Part shown: positions 2,838 through 38,730 of the stretch, piece after piece | Position numbering within the stretch: position 1 is the stretch's first letter | How the letters are laid out: each line of letters begins with the position of its first letter | Origin: Spirochaetota bacterium | GTDB taxonomy: Bacteria > Spirochaetota > UBA4802 > JAFGJZ01 | Assembly: GCA_029554345.1 (NCBI GenBank) | Contig: JAKPJF010000073.1 | Location: forward strand, 1 to 44,124 | Direction of reading: 5' to 3' | Length of the DNA: 44,124 bases | Position numbers and translations under genes: made by a program | Notes under the pieces: model-generated | Databases searched by the model: none | What the model was told of the DNA's origin: nothing | The model's input: the letters and a program-made list of their open reading frames with translations, nothing else

Positions 2838-3130
2838 TTAAAACGTCCGACGTAGTCGGACACAACTCGCGCGTCCGCAGCATCCGGCAAAGCCGGTGCG
2901 AGGAATACGCGCGACAAAAGCCAGGAGCGGGATCTCAAAGGGATGAGGGGCGGCGACTGAGCCCCTCGTCCCTTTGAATATTCTCGCATGATCCATGCGA
3001 AACTCGGATACATAAGGCGAAGCCTTATATTGTCGTCCGACACTCGGACAAATGGATATCAAAGGCGAAGCCTTTGAAGTCTGCCCGCCTCGCGGGCATC
3101 TTTGATCTTTTGCATGAGACCATGCGAAAA
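2838..3130. repeat. Composite multi-hairpin repeat, copy A (most complete)
   Basis: This is a GC-rich stretch in AT-rich surroundings, packed with perfect inverted repeats. Stems and loops seen: GTCCGAC-GTA-GTCGGAC (2845-2861); outer CGCGCGT/ACGCGCG (2868-2874/2907-2913) around GCA-(t)-CCGGC-AAA-GCCGGTGC (2880-2899, one bulged T); a 16-bp stem with loop GGCGACTGA (2936-2976); TCGCATG-ATC-CATGCGA (2984-3000); ATAAGGC-GAA-GCCTTAT (3012-3028); GTCCGA-CAC-TCGGAC (3035-3049); TCAAAGGC-GAA-GCCTTTGA (3059-3077); TGCCCGC-CTC-GCGGGCA (3082-3098); and GCATG-AGAC-CATGC (3112-3125). Bases 2873-2917 match 33738-33782 at 43 of 45 positions. Open frames across it are by-products of the palindromes. Confidence 0.85.
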
Positions 3131-33713: not shown

Positions 33714-33954
33714 AAATAAAAGCGCCTAGCAACAGACGTCCGCAGCATCCGGCATAGCCGGTGCGAGGAATTCGCGCGACAAGCCCCGCGCAGCGGTGCC
33801 CTTTTCTTTCGCCGAATTTCTTTTGGGCACGCAAAAGAAATCGGCAAAAGGATTTAAAAGGGGCGGAGCACCTTTTGGTTATTGCATGATCCATGCAAAA
33901 AATGAATCTATAAGGCGAAGCCTTATATGGTTGCCCAACTCATGGGCGCTCGGA
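33714..33954. repeat. Composite multi-hairpin repeat, copy C
   Basis: This shares with copy A (2838-3130) a 45-base block (33738-33782), a stem with loop GGCGGAGCA and flanks AAAAGG/CCTTTT (about 33858-33877), the TTGCATG-ATC-CATGCAA hairpin (33882-33898, a paired change from TCGCATG/CATGCGA), TATAAGGC-GAA-GCCTTATA (33909-33927) and a GCCC-AACTCAT-GGGC-type hairpin (33931-33945). It adds a 14-bp stem with one bulged A, GCCG-A-ATTTCTTTTG with loop GGCACG (33811-33845), a motif I recall from intergenic repeats in many Gram-negatives. At its left edge it shares AAAAGCGCCT with copy D (37938-37945). The order of modules is the same as in copy A. Confidence 0.8.
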
Positions 33955-34010
33955 TAACTTCCATTATTTTAATATTTGACATTGACAGTTTGCTATTTCT
34001 TCTATCCGGT

Positions 34011-35126
34011 ATGACTGCTCTATACATAATAGCTTCAATGCAGGGAATTTTTCTCGCATGTGCACTTTTCTTAAAAAAAGGAGTGCCCGGAAAGGTATTT
34101 GCTTCAATAGTTTTGCTGTTATCCTATGAACTTTTCTGTGAATATATTTACATTCGTTACGGTTGGAAAATTTACTGGCCGCTGTTTTCGATCAAGGAAG
34201 CGTTGGGATTCCTGTACGGACCTCTTATCTTCATTTACGTAACCACCCTCACCGATTCTGACATAAAATTCACAAAAAGATTATTACATTTTATTCCTTT
34301 TACACTTTATGCTGCTGTCGATATAAATACATTCTTTCCGCTTTTCATTGACCAGCATTATATCATAGGCGATCTCGACGATAGAGGTATATGCGCTTAC
34401 AGAATAACAACCAACATAATTAAAATTTTCATTACAATCTCTTATCTTATTTACTGCTATTTCAAGATAAGAAATTACCGTATTAGAATAAAAGAATATT
34501 ATTCTAATATCCAAAAAATAAATCTTAACTGGCTGTATTTCTTCATCATTACGGCATTTTTTCTTGGGTTTGTCGGTTTCGGTGCAGTAATAGTTTATTT
34601 ATTCTCTCCTGATCATGTCATTCATTATACTCAAATATTCTTCTTAATGCTTGCCCTCACGATTTACGTTGCGGGATATTTTGCATTAACCCAGTCTGAA
34701 ATGTTTTCAATAGTTCACGGCAGCAAAAACAGCACTGACAAGAACATAAAATATGCCAAGAGCAGCATCTCCAAAGAATCAATGGACTTATACATAAAAG
34801 CAATTACTACCTGCTTCGAAGAAGAGAAAATATATCTTGATCCGGATATAACGATTTCTTCGCTTTCCGAAAAAACAGGAATTCCGGGACATAAAATTTC
34901 ACAGGCAATAAATGAAACTTTCAAGATGAACTTTTATTCTCTGGTAAACAAATACCGCATACTATATGCCGTAGATATTCTATCAAAAGAAACAGATCAA
35001 ATTTCAATAATATCAGTATGCTTTCAATCCGGCTTCAACTCAAAATCCGTATTTAATAAAATTTTCAAGTCATACACAGGTAAAACTCCTTCTCTTTTCA
35101 GAAAAGAAATTTTAGAGAAAAACTGA
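34011..35126 (+). CDS. Membrane-bound AraC-family regulator
   Basis: The product has about seven N-terminal spans (from MTALYIIASMQGIFLACALF to about residue 230) and a C-terminal AraC DNA-binding domain (about 280-370). The latter has helix-turn-helix 1 in ISSLSEKTGIPGHKISQAIN and helix-turn-helix 2 with QISIISVCFQSGFNSKSVFN, then the family end FKSYTGKTPSLFRKE. An ATG at 33927 is in frame, but it lies in the GAA palindrome of repeat copy C and gives 28 unlikely residues. I prefer 34011, although no good ribosome site precedes either. A TTG between them is also possible. The ligand is unknown. It may control the PD40 and DUF362 genes that follow. Confidence 0.82.
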   Translation: MTALYIIASMQGIFLACALFLKKGVPGKVFASIVLLLSYELFCEYIYIRYGWKIYWPLFSIKEALGFLYGPLIFIYVTTLTDSDIKFTKRLLHFIPFTLYAAVDINTFFPLFIDQHYIIGDLDDRGICAYRITTNIIKIFITISYLIYCYFKIRNYRIRIKEYYSNIQKINLNWLYFFIITAFFLGFVGFGAVIVYLFSPDHVIHYTQIFFLMLALTIYVAGYFALTQSEMFSIVHGSKNSTDKNIKYAKSSISKESMDLYIKAITTCFEEEKIYLDPDITISSLSEKTGIPGHKISQAINETFKMNFYSLVNKYRILYAVDILSKETDQISIISVCFQSGFNSKSVFNKIFKSYTGKTPSLFRKEILEKN

Positions 35127-37809: not shown

Positions 37810-37858
37810 AAGCGGTTTTTACAATGCCGTAAGATGAATGAGAGCAATAATACCTAAA

Positions 37859-37990
37859 ACATCTGCCGAAGGCAGATACTAAGATGGTAGGAGAACCGGC
37901 ATCAAGGCGCTTCAATATCCGACAGGAAGTCGGATAAAAGCGCCTCGTAACGCGCGCCCGAAGCATCGTACAGGACGTGAGTAGCCAATT
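37859..37990. repeat. Composite multi-hairpin repeat, copy D
   Basis: A short relative of copies A-C. It shows ATCTGCC-GAA-GGCAGAT (37861-37877) and a two-part stem AGGCGCTT-(CAA)-TATCCGAC with loop AGGAA and GTCGGATA-(A)-AAGCGCCT (37905-37945). It then has CGCGCG followed by CCGAAGCATCG (about 37951-37968), resembling the CGCGCGTCCGCAGCATCC module of copy A, and ends near ACGTGAGTAG. It follows the DUF362 gene and lies upstream of the convergent small membrane gene. The frame over it on the minus strand is not a gene. Confidence 0.75.
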
Positions 37991-38345: not shown

Positions 38346-38559
38346 AAAACCTCTAAAAAATCTAATCATATATATTCTGCATTAAAGATAGAAAGCAATT
38401 TCAGCTAACTTCATATAAATGATAAATTAAATACAAAGCATCATTTTTTTAAATAACAATATTCCACTAGTTTCAATTATCAAATAGTCAATTTACCTGA
38501 TAGGTATCATAAAAGAACACAAAGAACTTATGTACTAGATATGTGAGAGAACAAAAATC
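38346..38559. other. AT-rich gap between the small membrane gene and repeat copy B
   Basis: No gene is visible. The sequence is AT-rich with no clear promoter. It includes the upstream region of the 38004-38345 gene. Confidence 0.3.
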
Positions 38560-38730
38560 AAAATTTGCCGAAGGCAAATTTATCTCTGATCGGAGCGCAG
38601 GAGTTCTGTCTGAGCCGAATCCGCCGTGTTTACAAAGGCGGTTCGGCGAGTTCTGCGCGACAAAGAGCGGGAGGGGGTTGCAAAGGGGCGAGGGTCGGCG
38701 AGTGAGACCTTCGCCCCTTTGATCTTTTTT
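38560..38730. repeat. Composite multi-hairpin repeat, copy B
   Basis: It begins with a 9-bp stem AAATTTGCC-GAA-GGCAAATTT (38561-38581). A three-part hairpin follows: outer GCGCAG/CTGCGC (38595-38600/38653-38658) and inner GCCGAA-(t)-CCGCC/GGCGG-TTCGGC (38614-38625/38637-38647), with one bulged T as in copy A. Then GACAAA, and a 16-bp stem CAAAGGGGCGAGGGTC with loop GGCGAGTGA (38681-38721) and a tract GATCTTTTTT on the plus strand. The 3' end touches the stop of the QmcA-type gene. Against copy A the stem has paired changes and the loop GGCGA(C/G)TGA is kept. Confidence 0.8.

Follow-up and report, generated by a model that had tools for sequence, protein, structure and literature searches.

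Among the small repeats described so far, the closest kind, by analogy, is the composite BOX element of Streptococcus (boxA-boxB-boxC), which is built from three types of module, or seven in S. suis, and shows terminal repeats and target duplications (PMC3049150). The spirochaete repeat presented here resembles it in being a modular, intergenic and foldable composite of small repeats, with fixed terminal modules and variable length, clustered with and inserted into other repeats (PMC3049150). It has, however, many more slots, alternative modules with wholesale stem differences and a core found across six families, and neither terminal repeats nor duplications were identified in it. REP, BIME and REPIN sequences with their RAYT transposases are likewise palindromic and extragenic, form mosaic arrays and show stem variation within families (PMC3733652, PMC3116915, PMC2817692), whereas the spirochaete copies carry no common GTAG or CGTC tag, are not 20-40 bp long, and reach their highest numbers in two genomes that lack the Y1 gene. 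CGTC-tagged palindromes, which have no dedicated transposase, are reported also in Spirochaetes (PMC3733652), and many copies of the first hairpin of our repeat (H1) start with CGTC, but other H1 versions do not, and the element is far longer and multi-part. Finally, the hairpin elements of mitochondria (double-hairpin elements, RHE and yeast GC clusters) share the GC-rich hairpins in AT-rich intergenic DNA, the apparent mobility and the merging and shuffling of palindromes (PMC2800124, PMC4478555), and our N module is itself a double hairpin; they are organellar, and homology is not claimed. Sponge RHE and yeast GC42 conserve their stems and vary in their loops (PMC2800124, PMC4478555), the opposite of the spirochaete repeat, in which loops and linkers are conserved and stems vary. 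Small palindromic repeats usually have one or few fixed sequences; here architecture, loops and order persist while stems and whole modules are replaced from copy to copy and, at a given locus, from one species to the other.

The window, i.e. the whole stretch of 44,124 bp that was analysed, is one (C70) of the 214 contigs of a 3.03-Mb spirochaete MAG (G000, 96% complete). An earlier note on it had proposed an intergenic repeat family with shared modules, represented by four copies (A to D); the family proves larger than described, as copy A used as BLAST query gives 69 matches in the source genome, with constant order and orientation. Mapping, which covered about 1.12 Mb of this genome and 159 kb of its congener (G001, Spirochaetes bacterium UR.bin167, JAKJGA), gave 41 stretches of 150 bp or longer in the former and 23 in the latter, within the DNA read, and units of about 160-665 bp. 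The congener, 66% complete, is the only one among the 38 relatives searched and, in the one collection scanned for exact core matches, the only other public genome with such a match. It should be noted that the data are draft assemblies, with one incomplete congener, that model E-values are rough, and that unit boundaries are uncertain, especially at the 3' end. On contigs longer than 40 kb, 12 of the 23 copies mapped are no more than 5 kb away from a contig end, as compared with 3.9 expected; hence, the genome copy count is a lower bound. The element probably breaks assemblies, so that short-read genomes will undercount its copies. No catalogue searched contains the repeat, which thus seems to be a mobile or structured repeat family without previous description, of unassigned function.

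Concerning its surroundings, the repeat is intergenic, nearly all mapped copies reaching into called genes by no more than a few tens of bases, and its 3' end typically adjoins a stop codon or falls shortly 5' of a start codon. The strand-bias check that had been suggested yields 34 downstream genes on the element strand and 28 on the opposite one. The 105 neighbouring proteins surveyed belong to many unrelated families, none seen more than 2 times, and include core functions such as pyruvate kinase, homoserine dehydrogenase and S-adenosylmethionine synthetase. A gene-cassette array, considered on account of nearby toxin-antitoxin genes, was discarded after this survey had given mixed core genes.

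The repeat is a non-coding element of up to several hundred bp, in which hairpin modules occupy fixed slots around a folded core that is conserved within a single order of Spirochaetota. In both species the slots follow one order and one orientation: an AT-rich leader that frequently holds a GTGC..GCAC hairpin, then H1, the two-tier core, the long hairpin or its substitute, and small trailing hairpins of the GCATG-x-CATGC and AAGGC-GAA-GCCTT types. Modules swap within slots, and stems vary on both arms together. The core comes in four sequence types, T1-T4, interchangeable in a single slot, T4 being the closest to copies in other families. The long-hairpin slot holds either a hairpin with loop GGCGACTGA or a TTTCTTTTG-GGCGACG-CAAAAGAAA hairpin, and N may cap other hairpins (at their apex, between C and GAAG), separate H1 from the core or occupy a leader slot. 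H1 also varies, with ATTCGGC, ATCAGCC and AAATTTGCC versions devoid of a GTAG or CGTC tag. Its common C-GNA-G and C-GNNA-G loops are of a kind unusually stable in single-stranded DNA. Four contigs of the source genome (C112, C78, C25 and C5) show extra hairpin repeats in or near leaders (CCCTCTCCC..GGGAGAGGG, TTTCCGC..GCGGAAA and CCCGC..GCGGG), which resemble either further slots or a separate, second family of repeats.

A covariance model of H1 and core (R1), for which the training set comprised copies from the source genus only, gives exactly four matches in the window, at 2841, 33718, 37857 and 38559, corresponding to the four copies described; all features given below lie on the forward strand. 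Copy A had been taken to start at 2838, but the repeat extends upstream into the AT-rich leader common to the copies, whose end (AATGAGAGAAAAAATCTTTAAAAC, 2820-2844) is supported by leader comparison and by congener matches that begin at 2815-2831. It is followed by H1 (GTCCGAC-GTA-GTCGGAC, 2845-2861; helix 1 of alignment A2, with 99.5% of cells paired and double changes at 5 of 7 pairs) and by a T1 core (2867-2914; helices 2 and 3 of A2, with cross-family homologues) consisting of an 8-bp outer stem, an internal loop and an inner stem with a bulged T and an AAA apex. The 16-bp long hairpin with loop GGCGACTGA occupies 2936-2976 (alignment A1). Six small hairpins complete the copy: one with GCATG-ATC-CATGC (2984-3001), a motif present at 28 places in the first set of stretches compared; ATAAGGC-GAA-GCCTTAT (3012-3028) and CAAAGGC-GAA-GCCTTTG (3060-3076), assigned by module comparison; GTCCGA-CAC-TCGGAC (3035-3049), read from the sequence and with equivalents in other copies; TGCCCGC-CTC-GCGGGCA (3082-3098), from the hairpin/terminator scan; and one with GCATG-AGAC-CATGC (3108-3129), supported by both module comparison and scan.

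Copies A and C share the 45-base block that had been reported (96% match, 2872-2917 against 33737-33782). Their modules do follow the same order, but their content is not fully co-linear: a remnant of the N double hairpin (AAAAGCGCCTAG, 33718-33732), recognised by comparing leaders with the N family, takes the place of H1 in C, and the long stem thought to be as in A is a TTTCTTTTG-type hairpin instead. In C the T1 core (33733-33782; R1 match 33718-33787, E 2e-10) is followed by CCGC-GCA-GCGG and TTTCTTTTG-GGCACG-CAAAAGAAA hairpins (33786-33844), in the slot of the long hairpin elsewhere and with a similar hairpin in G029, a genome of another family, and by trailing hairpins of the GGA, ATC and GAA types (33856-33926, module comparison). 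The AraC-type ORF called at 33927-35126 begins within copy C, and the gene probably starts further downstream than called. Copies B and D are distinct elements with a small ORF between them, and each has an H1 of its own. Copy B (37861-37967; R1 match 37857-37920) contains H1, an N double hairpin with AGGAGA and AGGAA loops, and the start of a decayed T1 core. Copy D has H1 (AAATTTGCC-GAA-GGCAAATTT) and a T4 core (38561-38660; R1 match 38559-38668 and cross-family comparison), and a long hairpin with loop GGCGAGTGA (38681-38722, A1) that ends beside the stop codon, at 38729, of a convergent SPFH-type gene.

Orthologous loci of the two species, whose flanks align at about 83-92% in most places, allow for a direct view of these replacements. 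At C191/C217 (source genome/congener) leader, H1 and T4 core are kept, the long hairpin version differs and the congener has a two-hairpin insertion. C44/C206 has a T2 core in one species and T3 in the other, with one more module present or absent. The H1 stem is replaced at C153/C158, where the outer core stem differs on both arms, while nearly everything is kept at C168/C203, except for one hairpin altered on both arms (GGCGAAGCC to GACGAAGTC). Finally, at C95/C317 the leader is kept and the hairpin part is wholly different. Loci persist, then, while modules turn over. A joinable empty site, sought in the congener and around purF, was not found, only module swaps and presence/absence differences, and no shared termini or target-site duplication were recognised in the compared copies. 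As a separate observation, a 2.3-kb stretch with an IstB/IS21 gene (L067, G001:C147:1-2270), ending at an element start, is 98.9% identical to G000:C72, the two species being otherwise about 87% alike, which is probably due to a recent IS transfer.

Outside the genus BLAST gave no matches. The covariance model from the copies, suggested in the earlier note and built as R1, locates the core in further families of the same order, with 9 copies in G026, 6 in G013 and 1-2 matches in four more genomes; these copies repeat the arrangement H1, two-tier core, trailing hairpins, in very different letters. A second model (R2) was trained with the R1-found copies added, on a model-fitted alignment, since automatic multi-family alignment misplaced H1 and the outer stem; pair counts are not drawn from this alignment. 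Over 393 genomes of the phylum, R2 is positive in 12, from 7 of 168 genera and 6 families, all of one order, and the copies are often multiple and patchy; as scoring stopped at 11 candidates per genome, copy numbers are minima and absences mean none detected. Matches in G010, G016, G022 and G033 are outside the training set. R2 detected none in g2, a genus of the same family, and within genus g11 copy number goes from none detected (G031) to at least 9-11 per genome (at least 11 in G026), a range that the chromosome element considered in the earlier note fits poorly. The 30 cross-family copies all carry GAGTT-like and TGTYTGA-like motifs, and in 20 a GGC[A/G]NNTGA loop, outside both models, comes next; their H1 is Watson-Crick in 203 of 210 cells. 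One G013 copy lies next to purF, and the 8 relatives compared at that end of purF have nothing equivalent there. Records of phages, viral contigs and plasmids gave nothing beyond short chance pieces, and an origin from any of these was rejected, each set of records being devoid of a real match. Likewise, the TTTCTTTTG module was considered as widespread in other bacteria and given up, with only a 24-base chance match in plasmids.

Taken as a whole, we read the family as a composite mosaic palindromic repeat that most likely is, or descends from, a non-autonomous mobile element, with a probability of roughly 0.55. It is backed by the dispersed intergenic copies, the constant slot order, the stem changes on both arms with covariation above that of controls, the turnover of single modules at orthologous loci and the homologous core with its patchy spread over six families. 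Multiple copies, patchy distribution and gain and loss of modules at orthologous sites point to mobile-element-like dynamics, and order-preserving swaps bounded by conserved linkers are what recombination between dispersed copies would be expected to produce. Qualitatively, modules would be exchanged between copies by recombination (gene conversion) across the conserved linkers, arm complementarity would be upheld by selection on the fold or by template switching between hairpin arms, and dispersal of the copies would be due to a putative enzyme able to recognise the folded core with its unpaired GAGTT/TGTYTGA motifs. The leader end of 12 copies shows the motif TTTTGGATTTGACA-N17-CATAAAG (variable; TTGACA-N17-CATAAA), in each of the 12 nearby cases on the opposite strand and mostly facing a divergent gene (e.g. 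G000:C183:1581, C34:6089, C54:47643, C3:3962 and C168:4242); this sequence resembles an outward promoter and may favour retention of the copies. Against mobility, neither a candidate enzyme nor a duplicated target site nor a clean empty site was found, the outer limits of the unit are not sharp, especially at the 3' end, and unpaired motifs kept across families would equally suit a functional RNA. More tentatively, the family could be an order-wide, undescribed mobile structured nucleic acid with its own putative recombinase and cassette-like module exchange, for which the core with its unpaired GAGTT/TGTYTGA motifs and GGCGNNTGA loop would be the recognition site. The repeat offers a natural setting in which to study how a palindrome can change and yet keep its arms complementary, by fold selection or by template switching between them, and what enzyme, if one exists, recognises the core fold common to six bacterial families.

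The fold itself could suggest a structured RNA, i.e. transcribed elements whose core would act as a functional RNA with many copies per genome; we regard this reading as rather unlikely. Copy A folds far better than its shuffles (z -10.2 as DNA, and -9.9 on the + strand and -8.3 on the - strand as RNA), its strong + strand folding and the unpaired motifs conserved across six families being as expected for an RNA, and stem changes are double-sided. Thus, the long stem (A1; 35 copies, 14 distinct) has 98.7% of cells paired and double changes at 8 of 16 pairs, with a covariation score of 0.532 against 0.229 when shuffled and at most 0.124 when slid, while H1 and T1 core (A2; 28 distinct copies) have 97.5% of cells paired, double changes at 9 of 23 pairs and a score of 0.221 against 0.068 shuffled. 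The impression that differences are mostly paired holds, then, in both alignments. In the 20 copies of N, 380 of 388 cells are Watson-Crick, 3 G-T and 5 mismatched, although whole stems differ. Such covarying pairs on a defined structure are compatible with RNA and folded DNA alike, but the changes are often of the G-C to C-G kind, and G-T pairs make up 10 of 1342 pooled cells in the H1, core, N and GGCG stems, as compared with 7 of 192 in tRNA stems of the same genome; in the long stem, by contrast, their share (10 of 224) is close to that of tRNA. This rarity leans towards pairing at the DNA level without proving it, cells not being independent events. Further points against an RNA are the neighbouring genes on either strand, the wholesale module change at orthologous loci, and Rfam, which has no match to the window at gathering threshold and gives for copy A and seven other-family copies, at permissive thresholds, weak, implausible matches (e.g. 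animal microRNAs) far below gathering scores.

That element 3' ends abut genes, and that the copy A region has 3 terminator-like hairpins against 0.5 expected, could indicate an intergenic insulator or bidirectional terminator array kept to block read-through. We consider this improbable, as long hairpin and core lack T tracts, the hairpins are far more numerous than termination needs, the distribution is patchy, with many copies in some genomes and none detected in others of a single genus, and the internal-loop motifs are conserved though termination needs none.

A REP/BIME-type element moved by a Y1 (RAYT) transposase, the candidate put forward in the earlier note, shares the palindromic, intergenic and mosaic character, and Y1_Tnp genes are common in the order. 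However, neither G000 nor G001, which together represent the copy-rich genus, has Y1_Tnp (PF01797), and all 20 of the further genomes tested have it, whether they harbour the element or not, which argues against Y1 as current mover; together with the lack of a constant GTAG or CGTC end tag and a length of hundreds of bp rather than 20-40, this makes the idea very improbable. Integron attC-like sites of a cassette array, suggested by the two-tier hairpin with its bulged base and by some toxin-antitoxin genes nearby, are the least credible of all, since many copies lie beside core genes and GTTRRRY pairing was not seen by eye.

A final point concerns the company that elements keep. Single copies adjoin IS3, IS110, IS256 and IS21 transposases and one group II intron (L077:1-1850, G000:C114; RT/maturase, domain V at 1721-1795), which lies just upstream of an element leader and N module, a position that may reflect hairpin-targeted insertion. 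A type II-B Cas9/Csx12 of 1,453 aa (TIGR03031, 469 bits; L049:10289-14650, G000:C161) directly adjoins another copy. In the congener, three near-identical partial elements (L086:7800-13100, G001:C217:19.8-25.2 kb) each stand 5' of an Rhs/YD-repeat-like gene fragment, as if they had been duplicated together. Similarly, two near-identical DUF3467 genes (L046:6712-6972 and L056:8265-8525) are each followed by a terminator-like hairpin and then by an element, which suggests a larger duplicated unit.
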